Origin: a virus
Strand: one strand, 5' to 3'
DNA length: 20,910 nt
Virus record (IMG/VR): IMGVR_UViG_3300021197_001317
Coordinates: 1 to 20,910 of that record
Both the position numbers and the translations under genes were made by a program. This document shows, piece after piece, positions 205 to 19,548 of this stretch (within the stretch, counting starts at the first letter, position 1; the number at the start of each line of letters is the position of its first letter). The notes beneath the pieces were generated by a model that had not been told where the DNA came from, ran no database searches, and saw only the letters and a list, made by a program, of their open reading frames with translations.

Positions 205-579
205 TTATGACAGGAACTCAGTGATGTTGTACTGTGCGTCCTCGATGCGCAACTCTTGCACTTCGTTTGCATGGCTTAGCTTCTTAGCAAACCACAGCTT
301 GAACTCCATCATATCCTCACCATGACAACCCCATGAGCCATTCTTGATGACGCTTCTACGCTGTCCGTTTTGATCGTACATAACGAGGAAGGCATATATG
401 TATGGGGCGTTCCTTGCACCCCCTTCTTCGATTCGATACTCGATAGCTATCTTTCGATTTCCACCATCTATGAAGGTGTTCGTGAGTATGGACTTGTGAT
501 TGTCGGGGTTGATTCCGACTACTTCCAGTCTGTCCCATGCACCTAGCATTTGGGTTAATGTGTTGTGTGTACACTTCAT
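205..579 (-). CDS. Hypothetical phage protein, 124 aa
   Basis: A 124-residue soluble protein with no signal peptide or membrane segment and no family I recognise. It has alternating strand-like stretches in its middle (IAIEYRIEEG, APYIYAFLVMY) and an acidic, helix-like C-terminus. The ATG at 579 is well supported: it follows a leader identical over 26 nt to that of the next gene upstream (640-816). The gene lies directly downstream of the self-cleaving ribozyme at 600-649, so its message would begin about 26 nt before the ATG after cleavage. It is the last confident gene of the leftward arm in this window. It could be an early host-interaction protein, but only its position suggests that. Confidence 0.75.
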   Translation of the reverse strand: MKCTHNTLTQMLGAWDRLEVVGINPDNHKSILTNTFIDGGNRKIAIEYRIEEGGARNAPYIYAFLVMYDQNGQRRSVIKNGSWGCHGEDMMEFKLWFAKKLSHANEVQELRIEDAQYNITEFLS

Positions 580-600
580 GTAATTGAGATTTTGATTTTG
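575..600 (-). repeat. Leader repeat copy 1 (CAAAATCAAAATCTC leader)
   Basis: This 26-nt segment is identical to 812-837. On the minus strand it reads CAAAATCAAAATCTCAATTA followed by the start codon region of the 205-579 gene. Shorter versions of the core (TCAAAATCT) lie just upstream of the starts at 2439, 3619 and 4364, and a looser one upstream of 3144. No Shine-Dalgarno is visible, as is usual in Bacteroidota, so an A-rich translation-initiation element is the likely role. Here the repeat starts where ribozyme stem I ends. Confidence 0.8.
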
Positions 601-649
601 ACACAGACGCCTATCGGCGTTTCGACCATTCAGGTCTCGTCAGTGTGCC
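600..649 (-). ncRNA. Type I hammerhead self-cleaving ribozyme (copy A)
   Basis: Read on the minus strand, all parts of a hammerhead are present in order. Stem I 5' strand GGCACA is at 649-644 and core CTGACGA at 643-637. Stem II GACC/GGTC (636-633, 627-624) has loop TGAAT. Core GAAA is at 623-620. Stem III CGCC/GGCG (619-616, 611-608) has loop GATA. Then come U607 (pairing with the last A of GAAA), C606 as the cleavage-site residue, and stem I 3' strand TGTGTC at 605-600. Cleavage is predicted between 606 and 605. Stem I is the open stem, so this is topology type I. The invariant CUGANGA, GAAA and UH residues are all intact. The UGA stop of the upstream gene (640-642) is itself U4-G5-A6 of the catalytic core. 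Assignment is by motif and pairing; activity is inferred. Confidence 0.92.
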
Positions 650-816
650 TGACTATTAAGTCTGTGGATTTCATCCAGTAACCACCACCTCTGCTCATCG
701 GTGAACTCCCCGTATGTCTGAAGCTGACGCTCCTCGAAATACTTCACCTTGTCCTTGTTCTGCTTGAACATATGGTAGGCAATCTTAGGTAGGTATCCGT
801 TTTCGTATCTGTTCAT
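640..816 (-). CDS. Hypothetical phage protein, 58 aa
   Basis: A small basic and aromatic protein starting MNRYENGYLPKIAYHMF, with a helical C-terminal half containing EQRWWLLDEIHRL. I do not recognise the family. The start at 816 is chosen because it follows the repeated leader at 812-837. A longer reading from 855 would begin inside the promoter -7 box. The last three codons and stop (GCA CAC TGA) form part of the hammerhead ribozyme, so the gene's 3' end and the ribozyme share 10 nt (640-649). It is the first gene after the promoter at 853-885. Confidence 0.72.
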   Translation of the reverse strand: MNRYENGYLPKIAYHMFKQNKDKVKYFEERQLQTYGEFTDEQRWWLLDEIHRLNSQAH

Positions 817-852: not shown

Positions 853-885
853 CAAAGATAATGTAAAGAATCCTTAACTTCCAAA
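853..885 (-). promoter_or_regulatory. Leftward Bacteroidota-type promoter P1
   Basis: On the minus strand a TTTG -33 element (885-882) is followed 21 nt later by TATCTTTG (860-853), matching the Bacteroidota TAnnTTTG -7 box. An A-rich AAATAAA tract lies directly upstream, as in P2 (2478-2509) and P3 (4431-4462). Predicted start is near 849, giving a leader of roughly 33 nt to the ATG at 816. A 6-bp inverted repeat (TAACTC/GAGTTA, 896-910), which contains the stop codon of the preceding gene, lies 10 nt upstream of the -33 element. Confidence 0.8.
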
Positions 886-2520: not shown

Positions 2521-2539
2521 AACTGATTGTTAATCAGTT
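2521..2539. repeat. Perfect 8-bp inverted repeat upstream of P2
   Basis: AACTGATT (2521-2528) and AATCAGTT (2532-2539) are separated by GTT. The repeat contains the TAA stop of the 2530-3144 gene and ends 11 nt upstream of the P2 -33 element. On the leftward RNA the hairpin is followed by A, not U, so it is not a standard intrinsic terminator. A regulator site or RNA 3'-end hairpin is possible. Confidence 0.6.
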
Positions 2540-3144
2540 AGTTTGAGCCATCGGTTTCGCATGACGACCCACACAATAGCCTGCAACTCGTAAGGCTTAT
2601 ACCCTAGGCGTTTCGCGACACTCACGAAGTGAGATTCTAGTCTGTCGTATTGTTTTGGGGTGAACGATTCCAGTGTTTTCTTAGGCTTCAACGAAGTTGT
2701 TAGGAAGGCTCTAGCCATCCACTTGTCAAGCGTTACGACTGACTCGTCACGATCCCCTACGTTTAAGGCGAATGCATATGTCTTACGGGATTCCTTCGTG
2801 ATTTTGGTTTCACCACTCCGAATGCTCCAAGCCCTAACCTTGTTAGAGTTGTAAGTGCAAACCTTGAAATCGTCGAGGCTTAAGCCTTTCGCATATGCCT
2901 CACACAAGTTCCAAGCATCAACTTTGTTGCGTTCCCATTTGTTGTTTGGTGACAAAGCTGAGATGATACCAGCCGCCATTACCTTAGTAATGTCGAAGGC
3001 ATTAGATAAAGTCTGAGCGAAGCTCATTGCATCGCTATACCACAGCATTCCTTCGTGTAACTCCTGAGGCGTAGCACGCCCCACGTGAGTTTCGATTCGT
3101 TTTGTGGCATCATTCAGCTTAAGCTGAGACCATGATGTTACCAT
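2530..3144 (-). CDS. Conserved phage protein of unknown function, 204 aa
   Basis: This belongs to a phage family I recognise by pattern but not by proven function. Its hallmarks are MLWYSDAMSFAQ at residues 33-44, AGIISALSPNNKWERNKVDA near 58-77, a basic KTYAFALN segment, VVTLDKWMARAFL in the middle, and YELQAIVWVVMRNRW at the C-terminus. The all-helical look with a conserved 'L-S-P-N-N-x-W-E-R-N' and a late Asp-Lys-Trp is faintly reminiscent of helix-hairpin-helix DNA glycosylases; that is speculation. The ATG at 3144 follows a CTCAAATCTTT leader directly downstream of ribozyme copy B. Its stop lies in the 2521-2539 inverted repeat. Confidence 0.75.
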   Translation of the reverse strand: MVTSWSQLKLNDATKRIETHVGRATPQELHEGMLWYSDAMSFAQTLSNAFDITKVMAAGIISALSPNNKWERNKVDAWNLCEAYAKGLSLDDFKVCTYNSNKVRAWSIRSGETKITKESRKTYAFALNVGDRDESVVTLDKWMARAFLTTSLKPKKTLESFTPKQYDRLESHFVSVAKRLGYKPYELQAIVWVVMRNRWLKLTD

Positions 3145-3165
3145 AGGTAATAAAGATTTGAGATT

Positions 3166-3217
3166 GACATAGACCCCCCTAAGGGGGTTTCGGCTATTGA
3201 AGCCTCATCAGTATGCC
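3166..3217 (-). ncRNA. Type I hammerhead self-cleaving ribozyme (copy B)
   Basis: On the minus strand the parts are as follows. Stem I 5' strand GGCATA is at 3217-3212 and core CTGATGA at 3211-3205. Stem II GGCT/AGCC (3204-3201, 3195-3192) has loop TCAAT. GAAA is at 3191-3188. Stem III CCCCC/GGGGG (3187-3183, 3178-3174) has loop TTAG. Then come U3173, cleavage residue C3172, and stem I 3' strand TATGTC at 3171-3166. Predicted cleavage is between 3172 and 3171. Compared with copy A, paired changes preserve pairing in all three stems while the core is constant except for the permitted variable position. The TAA stop of the upstream gene (3218-3220) abuts stem I. Activity is inferred. Confidence 0.93.
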
Positions 3218-3619
3218 TTACGCCTTATCTGAAGGGTGAGTGTAATCAGCAAGTTGCTGAAGTTCCTTTTCATAAGCATCGTTTCCAACGATTGGCAACT
3301 CCATTCGATTAGAGAGTATCTCTAATGCATCTCCAATCGGCTCTTGGAGATTTATCATCTCTTCGCATATATCATATGCCGCATTTACGTCTAAGGCGTC
3401 GAGCCGACTGAATGGGAGCCAAGCATCTCCTAAGGCTTCGTGCGCCCTGTCAATCTGATGTATCAGATTCATAATTTTATCAATCAATACTTGATTGCAT
3501 TGTTCCTTGAACTCCTTGGAGTTGAGGTAGTCGAAATCAACCGTAAGGTTGCAGCATTCAGCCGTCATATTCAGTTCCTGAATAAGTTCTTCGTGGTTGG
3601 TGGATGGGAAAGTTATCAT
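3218..3619 (-). CDS. Hypothetical protein, 133 aa, helical
   Basis: A mostly helical acidic protein with long amphipathic segments (CNQVLIDKIMNLIHQIDRAH and NAAYDICEEMINLQEPIGDA). No family is recognised and there is no membrane segment. The start at 3619 (MITFPSTNH) is preferred over an upstream TTG at 3643 because it follows the ATCAAAATCTC leader seen before other starts in this arm. The stop codon lies immediately 5' of ribozyme copy B. Confidence 0.7.
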   Translation of the reverse strand: MITFPSTNHEELIQELNMTAECCNLTVDFDYLNSKEFKEQCNQVLIDKIMNLIHQIDRAHEALGDAWLPFSRLDALDVNAAYDICEEMINLQEPIGDALEILSNRMELPIVGNDAYEKELQQLADYTHPSDKA

Positions 3620-3643
3620 AGATAAGAGATTTTGATGAAACAA

Positions 3644-3657
3644 CCCCCCGAAGGGGG
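3644..3657 (-). promoter_or_regulatory. CCCCC-UUCG-GGGGG hairpin in the intergenic leader
   Basis: On the minus strand CCCCC (3657-3653) and GGGGG (3648-3644) enclose TTCG, the very stable C(UUCG)G tetraloop. It is followed by GTTGTTTC and then the leader of the 3218-3619 gene. The short U-rich tail allows a weak terminator, but a 5' stabilising or processing hairpin fits equally. It occupies the place where ribozymes A and B sit elsewhere in the arm but has no CUGANGA or GAAA core. Confidence 0.7.
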
Positions 3658-3698
3658 ATGCTTCGTGTTAAGTGTTAGGTATATACGTTAATCTTCGA

Positions 3699-4364
3699 TT
3701 AGAAATTCATTTCAATTTGACCGACAACTTCGTTGCCAATCTCCGCTAGAAGCTGAGCTTCTAGTTGCGCTCTCTTTCTTAACTCGTTAAGACGGCGGAC
3801 AGCATCTTCAGGACTTTCGTCTTTCAGACGACGGAACTCCGTAGTCAATTCAGCTTTGCTGACTGACTTGGATGCTTTAGCATCAGCGTTATGCCTTCCG
3901 AGTGAGGCGACTTTCTCAGCAGCTTCGCTGACATTTGCCGTTTTCTTATCAGCCTTGCTGATGACACCAACTTCTCTCTTACGAGATTTCATCTCGTCGG
4001 AGTCAGCGACTATCTCCGAAGGAGTTCTTTTGGTCGGCTTCGCCTTACGCTTTGAAGCTTTAGCTTTCGGCTTCTTAGTAGCCTTCGGCTTCTTTGGAGA
4101 CTCTTCAACAACTTGTTGTTGTCTCATGAATTCAGCAAACATCTCAAGGAGATGGTTTTGGTCAACCTCGGCTTTCGCCTTAGGCTTGGAAACCTTCGGT
4201 TTAGAAACCTTCGGTTTGGACTGCTTCTCGACATACTCTCGTAGAGAGTCGATAGCTTTGAACGCCTCATCCTTCCTAGCTTTGCTAGGGTTGAAGGCAA
4301 CTTTGTTGACAGACTTCGTTACTGCTTGCAGTAACTCTACACGGAGTTGGTTGGCTTTAGCCAT
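3699..4364 (-). CDS. Histone H1-like Lys/Ala/Pro-rich basic protein, 221 aa
   Basis: The protein has a helical N-terminus (MAKANQLRVELLQAVTKSVN). A strongly basic central region follows, with PKVSK and KPKAK repeats and RKAKPTKRTPSE, resembling the low-complexity tail of bacterial and phage histone H1-like proteins. It ends in a helical C-terminal domain with charged Arg/Glu repeats (VRRLNELRKRAQLEAQLLAE). Binding and compacting DNA is the natural inference; no enzyme motif is present. The start at 4364 is chosen because a longer in-frame reading from 4445 would begin upstream of promoter P3 and be untranscribed. It is the first leftward gene, with a 62-nt leader holding a 7-bp hairpin. Confidence 0.75.
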   Translation of the reverse strand: MAKANQLRVELLQAVTKSVNKVAFNPSKARKDEAFKAIDSLREYVEKQSKPKVSKPKVSKPKAKAEVDQNHLLEMFAEFMRQQQVVEESPKKPKATKKPKAKASKRKAKPTKRTPSEIVADSDEMKSRKREVGVISKADKKTANVSEAAEKVASLGRHNADAKASKSVSKAELTTEFRRLKDESPEDAVRRLNELRKRAQLEAQLLAEIGNEVVGQIEMNF

Positions 4365-4380
4365 GGATAAAGATTTTGAG

Positions 4381-4398
4381 TAACCCCTTAGGGGGTTA
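4381..4398 (-). promoter_or_regulatory. 7-bp leader hairpin of the histone-like gene
   Basis: On the minus strand TAACCCC (4398-4392) pairs with GGGGTTA (4387-4381) around loop CTAA, just before the CTCAAAATCTTTATCC leader. It lies within the 5' untranslated region made by P3, in the same relative position as the ribozymes and the UUCG hairpin. Confidence 0.7.
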
Positions 4399-4430: not shown

Positions 4431-4462
4431 CAAAGGTATAACCAACTTTTCGATTTCACAAA
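4431..4462 (-). promoter_or_regulatory. Leftward Bacteroidota-type promoter P3
   Basis: On the minus strand TTTG (4462-4459), a 20-nt spacer and TACCTTTG (4438-4431) match the consensus. The AAAATAAATTTG block is shared with P1 and P2, and the spacer contains CGAAAAG as in P2. Predicted start is about 4427. It drives the first gene of the leftward arm. Confidence 0.82.
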
Positions 4463-4897
4463 TTTATTTTGCCTGATGTTTTTTTACTACGTAGTAGTAT
4501 ATACCCCATCAGATCGCATACGCATGATGAGGCAGACCTGTGTCGCATTAGGCGTATCCGTCTCCGTCGGCAGGGCTGAGGCGTTAGGCTTGAAGTGTCA
4601 CCCCTAGGGTGAGGTAGGTTAGTTGCATTTTGGTTTAGGTGGGGGGATTGTTCCCTCTCTCTTTCAGAGGGTTAAACGGATTCGCTTCGACAATTGCTTG
4701 AAGTAGAAGGGGCTAACCTGTTGCAAATCAGTGGACTAGCTGCTGTCAATACCTGGAATGTATGCGCAATCATCCGTCTCGATTGACCCACGGGGGTCTG
4801 CCGCTGCGTTTCGGACGTGTATGTGCGGCGTGCATATACCTATATAATCCCCACGGTATGCATTACAAACCCTTTTTTCAAGGTGATCAAAAATCAT

Positions 4898-4985: not shown

Positions 4986-5187
4986 TGACTTTGTAAGAAA
5001 AAAGCTGTAACTTCGCCAAAGCTCTTTTAGCGATAAAGCTTCGAAGCTGTTTATATCGAAGTAGATGTCTTATAGAGTGCGTACACGCACTAGACAGAAA
5101 CTACTAAGCGTCACTCAATAAACGAAGCTGTGCATGGCGCAAGGACTGTGCTGATCTATAGTGTGTTTAAGGGTAAAAGAAATAACT

Positions 5188-5195
5188 TATATTTG
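5188..5195 (+). promoter_or_regulatory. Rightward promoter -7 box TATATTTG (near-leaderless)
   Basis: TATATTTG matches TAnnTTTG. A poor -33 element (TTTA near 5166) lies about 18 nt upstream. The ATG at 5200 is only 4 nt after the box, so the predicted transcript begins at or within a base or two of the start codon. Confidence 0.7.
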
Positions 5196-5199
5196 TCTT

Positions 5200-5346
5200 A
5201 TGTACGCAAAGAAGAAGAAGAAGCCGATGTACGGCAAAGGAGGTAAGGTTGTTTACGCTCAGGGAGGTAAGTTCCCAGACCTTACTGGCGACGGTAAAGT
5301 TACACTGGCCGATATCCTGAAGGGTAGAGGAGTAAAAAAAGATTGA
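5200..5346 (+). CDS. Small basic protein with EF-hand/dockerin-like loop, 48 aa
   Basis: The N-terminus is a lysine run (MYAKKKKKPM) followed by glycine-rich YGKGGKVVYAQGGK. The C-terminus holds DLTGDGKVTLADILKGRG, a calcium-loop pattern (D-x-T-G-D-G-x-V-T-x-x-D) as in one half of a dockerin or EF-hand. I have seen similar K/G-rich short proteins ending in 'GDGKVTxxDILxGRGV' in uncultured marine phages; no function is established. The start at 5200 is chosen over an upstream alternative at 5161 because the promoter box lies at 5188-5195. The stop overlaps the next ATG (TGATG). Confidence 0.75.
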   Translation: MYAKKKKKPMYGKGGKVVYAQGGKFPDLTGDGKVTLADILKGRGVKKD

Positions 5347-8866: not shown

Positions 8867-9214
8867 ATGGCCTATAAGAATAAAGAAGATCAGGCTCGTG
8901 CTGCGCTGAAACACTACGAAAAAAACAAGGCTAAGATAAAAGAGAGGTCTAAGAAGAGAAACATTAATCAACGAAATAAAAATAAAGATTTCGTCGATAG
9001 GGTAAAAAGAAAATCCAAATGTTTGGATTGTGGTGAGGGGAACCCCGTCGTATTAGATTTTGACCACGTAAGGGGTGAGAAAAGAGCCAACATATCAGAC
9101 ATGGTTCGTTGGTCTTACTCTATAGATACGATAAAAAAAGAGATTAGAAAGTGTGAGGTCAGGTGCTCAAACTGTCATCGCAAAAAAACACATGAGAGAA
9201 GAATGCACCAGTAG
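8867..9214 (+). CDS. HNH endonuclease-like protein, 115 aa
   Basis: A Lys/Arg-rich helical N-terminus (residues 1-50) precedes zinc-binding C52-x-x-C55, then VLDFDHVRGEKR with D64 and H67 as the HNH active-site entry, and C96, C100-x-x-C103 and H104 in VRCSNCHRKKTHE. This is the short phage HNH form seen as free-standing homing-type or packaging-associated nucleases. Next to the large terminase it could assist packaging, or be a selfish element. The stop codon lies inside the tRNA-Arg gene: the last three codons and stop share 10 nt with the tRNA 5' end. Confidence 0.85.
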   Translation: MAYKNKEDQARAALKHYEKNKAKIKERSKKRNINQRNKNKDFVDRVKRKSKCLDCGEGNPVVLDFDHVRGEKRANISDMVRWSYSIDTIKKEIRKCEVRCSNCHRKKTHERRMHQ

Positions 9215-9278
9215 CTCAGTTGGATAGAGCATCTGCCTTCTAAGCAGACGGTCACAGGTTCGAACCCTGTCTGGTGTA
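9205..9278 (+). tRNA. tRNA-Arg (anticodon UCU)
   Basis: A complete cloverleaf is seen. Acceptor GCACCAG/CTGGTGT has one G-U pair; the D stem is GCTC/GAGC. The anticodon stem TCTGC/GCAGA carries loop CTTCTAA with anticodon TCT (reads AGA, and AGG by wobble). The T stem ACAGG/CCTGT carries TTCGAAC, and the discriminator is A. CCA is not encoded. AGA and AGG are frequent in the neighbouring late genes, so the tRNA probably supports phage codon use. Its first 10 bases overlap the HNH gene end, so it must be processed out of the same transcript. Confidence 0.96.
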
Positions 9279-9296
9279 CGAATTAAATTAAACAAC

Positions 9297-14474: not shown

Positions 14475-16130
14475 ATGCCACTAAGTGTAGACCAACCTTC
14501 TAAAATAATTGTATCTAGTTCTACTGGCGGGTTAATAAAGGTTTCTGTAACTAGCATAACTGAGTCAAAGACTGTCAGTATAAATCAGGTTACATCAAAC
14601 AACATTACTGTTGCTGGTGCAATTGGCGCTGGACCAGCTGGCCCTCAAGGGCCTGCGGGACCTTCAGGTGCCGACGGTGCCGACGGAGCTGCGGGTGCTG
14701 ATGGAGCTGCGGGTGCTGATGGTGCTCAGGGTCCTGCTGGCCCTGCTGGTGCTGATGGCGCTGACGGAGCCCCAGGTGCCGACGGAGCTGACGGAGCTGA
14801 TGGTGCGGATGGAGCTGATGGTGCGGACGGGGTTGAGGCAACTTTTACGCAGAACTACGTGGCTAATATGCCCACGGTAAACAACATAGTTAAGACTTTC
14901 GGCAAGTACAAAAACGGAGATACCATACCAGCTAATGGTAAGACAGCTGCTGAGCTTTTGGTTGATGCGTTCACGGACGCTATTAACCCAAGCCCTAGCT
15001 TTAGTCTTTCTGGACCTGATTGGCAGCACCCTTCAAACGCATCTTCTGTAACTATATCCTCTATAAACTTTGGTATCGCTAACCAAGGCGCTACTGGAAC
15101 TGCTGTACTTGAGTACCAGTTATCTACTAGCACATCTACACCTACTGGATCCTGGACCACGGTTCAATCGTACACATCTTCTGAGGTTACTTTTGGGGCT
15201 TCGAATCTATCAAAGGTTTACAGCACTGGTGAGGCTTGGGCTAGTAACAATGTATTTCACTTTCGCCTTAGGGTTACAGATAGTACTAGCGGTACAACCG
15301 AACAGACAGCAAACGTCTTTACAGTAGCCAATAGCTTTGACTCGCCTCTTATTAGCGACAAACAAATAACCAGGAGTAACTCTTCTATTTCTGCTGCAAC
15401 GGGTACAACCTCTACAACCAGAGAGTATGGTGACGTTCAGTCTACTCTTCGTTATGACGTAAGAAGGGATGAGCTTTATGATCCGTTGATTGACTCTGTT
15501 GTACAGGTTAAAATAGGTAGCAATTACAGGGAGATAACAACACCTAACTCTACAACAAGCCTTGCTTCTTTAGGTAATGGATCTACGCAGAATAACATCT
15601 CTCTGGCTATAAACACGGACTCAATTACTGTTGCTACAGACGGATCTACTGATTTAACAGCGGAGGCCACACCTCATGAATATAGGATTGTTGTTGATAG
15701 CACTTATGGAACCGACACCTCTGGTGACTTTTCCAACATAAACTATTACTACTCTTATCAGGTGTGTTTCGATACAACAGCCTTGACTACTGGATCTTCT
15801 CAGTCCGACGTTCAAACTGTTTATGCAGCGTTTGGTGGCGACGACAGCGGCAGTAACGAAAGAGAGATCAAGACAGGATCCTATCCTTCAAGCATAGGGA
15901 ATATCAATACATACACTGTTCAAACGAGCAATAAGTTTATGTATATATTCTATCCAGGCAGCACCGACATAAGCGCCATGACCTTAGACGGTGTGTCCCC
16001 AACTCTAGGGGCATTTACTGATTTAGGTACCTTTACTTTAAGCAACCGCTACGGGGTCTCAACTACGTACACGGTTTACAAATCCAATTCAACTAACGCA
16101 TTTAACAACAATTTCTTAAACATATCCTGA
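14475..16130 (+). CDS. Collagen-like fibre protein, 551 aa
   Basis: A short N-terminal attachment domain (residues 1-52) is followed by 23 perfect Gly-X-Y triplets (53-121; GPA, GPQ, then mostly GAD), forming a bacterial-type collagen stalk that can trimerise without hydroxyproline. The rest is a large beta-rich head with Ser/Thr-rich strands (SPSFSLSGPDWQHPS, FHFRLRVTDS, YGVSTTYTVYKSN) suited to receptor binding. No chaperone domain or peptidase is seen. It is coupled to the next gene by TGATG. The GAD-rich stalk is coded by tandem GGTGCTGAT-like repeats prone to length change by slippage. Confidence 0.85.
   Translation: MPLSVDQPSKIIVSSSTGGLIKVSVTSITESKTVSINQVTSNNITVAGAIGAGPAGPQGPAGPSGADGADGAAGADGAAGADGAQGPAGPAGADGADGAPGADGADGADGADGADGADGVEATFTQNYVANMPTVNNIVKTFGKYKNGDTIPANGKTAAELLVDAFTDAINPSPSFSLSGPDWQHPSNASSVTISSINFGIANQGATGTAVLEYQLSTSTSTPTGSWTTVQSYTSSEVTFGASNLSKVYSTGEAWASNNVFHFRLRVTDSTSGTTEQTANVFTVANSFDSPLISDKQITRSNSSISAATGTTSTTREYGDVQSTLRYDVRRDELYDPLIDSVVQVKIGSNYREITTPNSTTSLASLGNGSTQNNISLAINTDSITVATDGSTDLTAEATPHEYRIVVDSTYGTDTSGDFSNINYYYSYQVCFDTTALTTGSSQSDVQTVYAAFGGDDSGSNEREIKTGSYPSSIGNINTYTVQTSNKFMYIFYPGSTDISAMTLDGVSPTLGAFTDLGTFTLSNRYGVSTTYTVYKSNSTNAFNNNFLNIS
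14631..14837 (+). repeat. Gly-X-Y coding repeat of the collagen-like stalk
   Basis: 23 consecutive nine-base units code Gly-X-Y. The second half is dominated by GCTGATGGA/GGTGCGGAT type units that are nearly identical. The gene frame is preserved throughout, and other frames over the same DNA give only repetitive shadow ORFs. Confidence 0.9.
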
Positions 16131-18387: not shown

Positions 18388-19548
18388 GTGGCCGACTGGA
18401 AAAAAATATTAACGGCTGGCTCTGTAAAGGCTGCTGATATAGACTCTGAGAGCTCTACCGACGGTTACGTTTTAGCCTCGGATGGGGCTGGAGGTGCTGC
18501 TTGGGAGGCTGCTTCAGGGTCTAGTGATTACAACGTGTTTGCTGACGTTACTGCAAGAAACGGTGTAGCCTCCTCAAGCCGAAAAGAAGGTTATCTCGCG
18601 TACACTAAAAACAACAATGAGCTTCGTGTTTACAAGTCTACGGATACAGGCAACACTGCTTGGCAGACAGGATCGAACTGGCTTTTAGTCCCTCACAATA
18701 CGGATGAGTACGGGGTTGTAACTGCTGCCACTTTGGTTGCAGCGAATGACGATAAGTATTTTTTTCAGCTTTACGATGCAGACAGCGACACGTACAAGAA
18801 GCTTTCTCAGAACGATTTCTTTGGGTGGTTCGCAACCGCCTTCGCTCAGATCTTAATAGACCAAGGCTTAGGAACTGTTGATACTTATTCGGCAGCTGGA
18901 TCAAATATCGTAGGAGATCTGGATGGCGACGGTCAAGTCAGCACAGCTGACCTGCTTTTGTTTCTTGGGAATTTTGGTATTGGAGCCCCCTTTACTATAG
19001 ACTGGACCGCAGACTTTCAAGGCGACGGGTCTGTCGTAAACTTCACTGGGTCAAGTGATTATGGAACCTACAAAACCATAACATTTGAATCTAGCGACCT
19101 TACTGGTGGCCTTACATCTACTGGGATTGATAATGGGTTCAACGACGCTAATGACTATCTGACTTTAGAGGATGGTACTAATTTTACTTTGTCTTCTAAT
19201 ATGTTAGGAACGGGACAAATTCCTGACGTCGCTCAAGCCACTATTAAGCTGAACGTGAATAAAACCGTTCCAGCTTTTTCATACGTTGCGCCACGTCTTA
19301 AAATTGAATTCGTTAATAATAGTTCTGTTGCTGTAACTGCTTACCATCAATTCCCTCCTATCTCAAACGAAGATCAATCGTCAGCTACTTGGGAGTATTC
19401 ACAAACAGAAAGTATTATTGACGTTTTGAATTCATTTTATCCACCCACTTACGACGAAATAAGGCTCACTATAGAGGCCTCAACTCTTTCTGACGACTTT
19501 GTAAACCTTAAGGCGGGAACTAAAATTGAGTTTGTAGCAAACAACTGA
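18388..19548 (+). CDS. Fibre/appendage protein with internal dockerin-like repeat, 386 aa
   Basis: The GTG start at 18388 is used because the encoded MADWKKILTAGSVKAADI matches the MASWKK N-terminus of the upstream fibre gene. After a beta-rich part (RVYKSTDTGNTAWQTGSNWL) comes a calcium-loop repeat GDLDGDGQVSTADLLLFLGN at 176-195, a single dockerin type I half (D-x-D-G-D-G-x-V-x-x-x-D). The C-terminal half is a beta-sandwich-like domain (SSDYGTYKTITFESSDL; KLNVNKTVPAFSYVAPRLKI). Two loop halves are usual in dockerins; only one is visible here. Probably a receptor-binding or joint protein of the appendage. Confidence 0.75.
   Translation: MADWKKILTAGSVKAADIDSESSTDGYVLASDGAGGAAWEAASGSSDYNVFADVTARNGVASSSRKEGYLAYTKNNNELRVYKSTDTGNTAWQTGSNWLLVPHNTDEYGVVTAATLVAANDDKYFFQLYDADSDTYKKLSQNDFFGWFATAFAQILIDQGLGTVDTYSAAGSNIVGDLDGDGQVSTADLLLFLGNFGIGAPFTIDWTADFQGDGSVVNFTGSSDYGTYKTITFESSDLTGGLTSTGIDNGFNDANDYLTLEDGTNFTLSSNMLGTGQIPDVAQATIKLNVNKTVPAFSYVAPRLKIEFVNNSSVAVTAYHQFPPISNEDQSSATWEYSQTESIIDVLNSFYPPTYDEIRLTIEASTLSDDFVNLKAGTKIEFVANN

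Follow-up and report, generated by a model that had tools for sequence, protein, structure and literature searches.

Hammerhead ribozyme B, located between two genes of a phage sequence of 20,910 nucleotides (positions 1 to 20,910 of IMG/VR record IMGVR_UViG_3300021197_001317; hereafter the window), probably acts as a self-cleaving type I hammerhead that punctuates mRNA, splitting a polycistronic phage transcript. By all criteria that can be tested computationally B is a hammerhead, and its cut site is predicted. More than 100 related elements were found in viral contigs, and sequence comparison among them indicates that the hammerhead structure is under selection.

Sequence and fold of hammerhead B

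The element lies on the minus strand, which the preliminary description had left unstated but had implied by placing the cleavage site at 3172/3171. Read from 3217 to 3166, the RNA is GGCAUA CUGAUGA GGCU-UCAAU-AGCC GAA A-CCCCC-UUAG-GGGGG-U C/UAUGUC, with the stroke at the predicted cut (Table 1). The core is complete, as that description held, comprising C3 U4 G5 A6 N7 G8 A9, G12 A13 A14, the pair A15.1-U16.1 and C as H17. The minus-strand reading also bears out a five-base-pair CCCCC/GGGGG stem III and a position directly after a stop codon, the TAA of the upstream open reading frame (ORF) adjoining stem I. The pairs that were said to differ between B and hammerhead A, the other copy in the window, do differ on both sides: C-G to U-A at pair 5 of stem I, A-U to G-C at pair 2 and C-G to U-A at pair 4 of stem II, and G-C to C-G in stem III.

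The layout is that of a type I hammerhead, with stem I open to the transcript and stems II and III closed by loops. In thermodynamic folding, the exact hammerhead is both the minimum free energy (MFE) and the centroid structure of the elements on their own; when flanking sequence is added, stem I of B and of A is displaced in the MFE. The core bases, the core-adjacent pairs 1.1-2.1, 10.1-11.1 and 15.1-16.1, the three helices and the covariation agree with the class rules of PMC3088659. Stem I is bordered by A residues at either side (98% and 96%) and loop II is usually U-NNN-U, which suggests a tertiary contact between loop II and the stem I region.

Table 1. Features of hammerheads B and A and of the surrounding genes in the window
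Feature	Position	Strand	Basis	Remarks
Hammerhead ribozyme B, type I, stem I open	3217..3166	minus	descriptor, folding, covariance model	
B stem I	3217-3212 with 3171-3166	minus		6 bp
B core CUGAUGA	3211-3205	minus		
B stem II	3204-3201 with 3195-3192	minus		4 bp; loop UCAAU
B GAA	3191-3189	minus		
B A15.1-U16.1	3188 with 3173	minus		
B stem III	3187-3183 with 3178-3174	minus		5 G-C pairs plus A15.1-U16.1
B C17, predicted cut	3172/3171	minus		cut after C3172
B leader	3145..3171	minus	predicted cut	27 nt, G-poor, UAUGUCAAUCUCAAAUCUUUAUUACCU, predicted unstructured
Gene downstream of B	2530..3144	minus		204 aa, DUF7178 / phrog_3842, no assigned function
Gene upstream of B	3218..3619	minus		133 aa, ATG 3619, TAA 3220-3218
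Candidate -7 box TACCTTTG	4431..4438	minus	read from sequence	transcription unit 4364..2530 containing B
Hammerhead ribozyme A	649..600	minus	descriptor, covariance model	predicted cut 606/605
A leader	580..605	minus	predicted cut	26 nt, predicted unstructured
Gene downstream of A	205..579	minus		124 aa; elsewhere a promoter replaces A
Gene upstream of A	640..816	minus		58 aa, MNRYENGYLPK...SQAH (stop); promoter-driven in the window
Bacteroidota-type promoter of the 58-aa gene	853..885	minus		TTTG 885-882, TATCTTTG 860-853

A descriptor scan of the window returned two matches only, A and B, while the same descriptor matched once per about 5.5 Mb in a control shuffled in blocks of two bases. 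The covariance-model scan proposed in the preliminary description was carried out with a model (R2) built without the window sequences, and gave 73.0 bits (E 1.5e-18) for B and 68.9 bits (E 2.1e-17) for A. At its curated cut-offs, Rfam makes no hammerhead call in the window: A scores 23.5 bits with Hammerhead_1 against a cut-off of 34, and B scores 26.2 against 56.3 with RAGATH-1-hammerhead and 16.5 against 48.5 with Hammerhead_3. With the covariance model, a hammerhead group is found that escapes Rfam at the curated cut-offs.

Covariation among related elements

The differences between A and B had been taken as covariation, and so as evidence of a selected structure. The homologues collected since then keep the pairing and sustain that reading. 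In a pairing-free test, the DNA search pattern was limited to the core letters and a single strand of stem I; in 78 of 97 distinct matches, each of the 13 pairs tested across stems I, II and III is perfect, and the remaining 19 scatter, mostly as by chance. Across 79 relatives, 13 of 15 base pairs show changes on both sides, with a covariation score of 0.660 against 0.195 for shuffled and 0.038-0.094 for slid versions; these 79 rows were chosen by a descriptor that requires pairing, and the pairing-free pattern is the cleaner test.

In cultured isolates of Elemovirus whose locus is about 97-100% identical, stem II is either GACU/AGUC or GGUU/AACC. In elemoF_6-3D, stem II is a natural hybrid, GACU/AACC, with two mismatches, and other records are identical there; stem III of the Elemovirus element contains one A-A mismatch. 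Deposited Elemovirus records with the locus number 68; they are from isolates on a single Flavobacterium strain, and some of them appear in two databases. The two intact stem II versions together with the natural hybrids make these isolates a ready test system. Annotation places a small CDS (gp66) antisense to the Elemovirus hammerhead at NC_055853.1 16030-16137, and likewise in several records; it is probably not a gene.

Source phage and distribution

Terminase and portal match those of flavobacterial podoviruses (Elemovirus, Callevirus and relatives), the promoters of the window are of the Bacteroidota type (TTTG / TANNTTTG), and its leaders are without Shine-Dalgarno sequences; the hosts are probably flavobacteria. 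The element was met in only 6 of the 30 terminase relatives searched, a set with many fragments, and is therefore dispensable; records that have it contain one to three copies. Among seven named relatives of the terminase/portal lineage scanned with the first model, Elemovirus elemoF alone gave a match. Host or prophage copies were considered and set aside: across 84,980 bacterial and archaeal genomes, the strict pattern had no match, and a looser one had seven, two of them real hammerheads on related Flammeovirgaceae MAG contigs.

BLAST of two family-like hammerheads against named phages found none of the group with its leader. Through this search we met a complete hammerhead motif between two small genes of Agrobacterium phage OLIVR1 (NC_055840.1, L250:1495-1544), a cultured member of the Schitoviridae. 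Elsewhere in the window there are collagen-like GPAGPAG/GADGAD repeats of a probable structural protein (14475-16130, plus strand), dockerin-like DGDG motifs (5161-5346 and 18388-19548), and a tRNA-Arg (TCT) at 9205-9279 (plus strand) that overlaps the end of the ORF at 8867-9214.

Gene context and leader geometry

The predicted cut is separated from the downstream ATG by 20-33 nt in 101 of 111 distinct elements with a downstream ORF (median 26; search restricted to 8-75 nt). Nearly all elements are in the sense of the downstream gene. On the opposite strand, an ATG-started ORF is nearby in only 18 of 116 cases, at distances of 4-74 nt that scatter without a peak. The upstream stop is the core UGA in 23 of 110 elements, as in A, where UGA 642-640 ends the 58-aa gene, and many other stops lie only a few nt away from stem I. 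Spacing to the downstream start varies less than spacing to the upstream stop. The 115 downstream ORFs form 60 clusters and the 120 upstream ORFs 55, so the element is tied to no particular gene. As with other gene-flanking phage hammerheads, more than one is present, in sense, flanking individual genes. Seven hammerheads in L200 and L145, contigs of other lineages with Shine-Dalgarno leaders, stand 25-32 nt before the start.

For the 133-aa gene upstream of B no family was found, and for the DUF7178 gene behind B no promoter of its own was seen. The last 20 nt of the A leader match, letter for letter, the leader of the gene at 816, which is promoter-driven. Two GC hairpins of the window that contain no hammerhead core are located on the minus strand, one (CCCCC/GGGGG, 3645-3662) close upstream of the leader of the gene at 3619 and the other (CCCC/GGGG, 4377-4395) close upstream of the leader of the gene at 4364.

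Unusual arrangements were also observed. In L200 (3547-6047, minus strand), of another phage lineage, five hammerheads crowd into 2.5 kb, and every one precedes a gene whose leader has a Shine-Dalgarno sequence. L105 (4213-4412, plus strand) has tandem hammerheads; in stem III of the second is a structured insertion, roughly 100 nt long and without a tRNA. Cleavage at both sites would free a small RNA of about 150 nt.

Exchange with promoters and other elements

Ribozyme and promoter replace one another at the gene behind A and in other families. Orthologues of the 124-aa gene (mostly 75-92% identical; L280, L281, L283-L292) have a promoter at the place of A. Ten distinct orthologue sites score as promoters there; these promoters are consensus matches, whose leaders would measure about 26-45 nt counted from the -5 position of PMC6847099. 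The leader next to the ATG, AATCAAAATCTCAATTACATG or nearly so, is conserved between the promoter orthologues and the window behind A. The 58-aa gene presents the reverse case, with a promoter in the window and L292 and a hammerhead in L045, L126, L280 and L285. Behind this gene A is kept in L045, L126, L285 and L292, with the core UGA as stop, and the next gene differs.

Such alternation occurs in six gene families, some of them overlapping, compared with a base rate of promoter matches at 11 of 258 ORF starts in general. The same place is occupied by a tRNA in five gene families and by a long hairpin in eight, under simple pattern rules, with overlapping families and some matches sharing one site. 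At B, no promoter replacement was seen, and exchange with a terminator-like hairpin was found in one relative: in L004/L279, the only close relative found with the same gene upstream of B, the orthologue (71% identical) has the same stop, followed by a GC hairpin and a T run.

The alternation suggests that an RNA cut may do part of the job of a promoter. A more general reading, which we advance tentatively and would stop a little short of calling probable, is that Bacteroidota phages possess interchangeable 5'-end devices (promoter, hammerhead, tRNA, long hairpin) before a standard leader of roughly 25-30 nt; the ribozyme would then stand in for a promoter, and recombination at the leader they have in common would move genes from one device to another. 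In such a set, the tRNA would be cut by tRNA-processing enzymes, and the long hairpin would possibly be an RNase III site.

Several individual loci deserve mention. Long perfect hairpins GTATATATACTCTCTC...GAGAGTATATATAC are found in L097:11600-11690, L166:12870-12958 and L189:7900-7987 (all plus strand), where relatives have a hammerhead, and are possible RNase III sites. The standard leader directly follows tRNA-like 3' ends in L275, L050 and L237 (minus strand), and these families have hammerheads elsewhere. A conserved long hairpin, CCUAAAGG...GAGAGUCGG...CCUUNGG, with a possible pseudoknot, is positioned just upstream of the standard leader in L129 (minus strand, near 4709 in reverse-complement count), L121 (6100-6220, plus strand) and L189 (6190-6310, plus strand), and further in L097, L100, L119, L164 and L199. 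It had no Rfam match at the five loci scanned and is possibly a new leader RNA. It precedes similar genes, mostly MNNFNFSD..., and we rejected it as a general module.

Proposed role of the ribozyme

In the proposed mechanism, a polycistronic transcript would run, probably from a promoter near 4435, through the genes at 4364 and 3619 and through B into the DUF7178 gene. The hammerhead would fold in the RNA right after the upstream stop and cut after C3172. Stems II and III, and with them most of the ribozyme, would stay on the upstream mRNA and form its structured 3' end, which would bear a 2',3'-cyclic phosphate. The downstream mRNA would begin with 5'-OH, followed by a G-poor, unstructured leader of 27 nt up to the AUG. 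The ribozyme would in this way supply the 5' end of the DUF7178 gene, with a leader similar in length and kind to one made by a promoter in these hosts. In flavobacteria, the 5' UTR of primary transcripts has a median length of 24 nt (PMC9723704); initiation operates without a Shine-Dalgarno sequence and is modulated by the absence of structure around the start codon (PMC6847099). We infer that B cleaves in the cell and that the phage benefits, through a free leader for initiation without Shine-Dalgarno, through separate stability of the two mRNAs, or both. Leaders of the same kind precede genes without a ribozyme, which counts against the leader model; the leader is therefore not specific to the ribozyme. 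The 26-nt spacing could simply be the closest hairpin position that spares the ribosome site, and the structured 3' end of the upstream mRNA may matter as much as the leader.

Alternatively, the ribozyme could serve the upstream gene by providing a defined, structured 3' end instead of a terminator while transcription continues, the leader being a by-product. The location of B directly after a stop codon would fit such a role, as would the terminator-like hairpin that ends the orthologous gene in L004, the stops that coincide with the core UGA (23 of 110) or fall within a few nt of stem I, and the constancy of A behind the 58-aa gene in L045, L126, L285 and L292, where the gene that follows A differs. 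However, it is the downstream-start distance that is the more constant, and the promoter exchanges are on the downstream side. We regard this explanation as possible, though somewhat less likely than not. A 3'-end role and a 5'-leader role are compatible.

A regulated switch, in which the cut is controlled by upstream translation running past the stop, by a competing fold, or by salt or a ligand, and the two genes are expressed by turns, appears unlikely. An upstream ribosome would reach into the ribozyme where the stop is in or beside it, stem I is lost in flanked MFE folds, and control by salt was suggested for a halovirus hammerhead (PMC3088659). Yet the flanking genes are unrelated, no conserved extra domain is present, and the candidate switch hairpin, in which an upstream CAG flank would hide the core CUG, was rejected because it is not enriched over random flanks. 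Least probable is a mobile or decaying element without a role in the phage; its patchy distribution and the two stem II mismatches of the natural elemoF hybrid would be expected of one, whereas sense orientation, fixed geometry, perfect pairing through many double changes, one to three copies per record among carriers and an orthologous position kept behind one gene all argue against it.

Relation to known systems

Gene-flanking hammerheads of phages and prophages, and their proposed role in cutting long transcripts into gene-length mRNAs, are already published (Perreault et al. 2011, PMC3088659); some of them are reported to cleave in vitro and in E. coli. The present group shares with them a position between small phage genes and several copies per genome, but many of the earlier examples are near prophage integrase genes, unlike this group. 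The accessible text of that paper does not describe constant leader geometry or promoter exchange. In the literature on phage hammerheads and leaders, nothing closer than PMC3088659 was found in full text, largely outside subscription papers, and this hammerhead group, its fixed leader and the promoter exchange were not found in the searchable full-text literature. A review regards the purpose of prokaryotic hammerheads as an open question (PMC6155905), and ribozyme/promoter alternation at orthologous genes offers a concrete, testable answer.

The best Rfam matches, RAGATH-1-hammerhead (RF03152) and Hammerhead_1 (RF00163), have the same core and fold, and the matches found to them are all below the curated cut-offs; the RAGATH-1 model differs in that its stem II is shorter and it has a further hairpin on the 5' side. 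Like B, HHphage of haloviruses HF1/HF2 is a hammerhead that closely precedes a start codon, there within an early operon (PMC3088659, PMC7230728). It differs in belonging to an archaeal virus, in its distance of 13 nt from the start codon, in being a structural variant and in occupying one site. In HF1/HF2, the mapped mRNA 5' end lies no more than three nt from the cleavage site.
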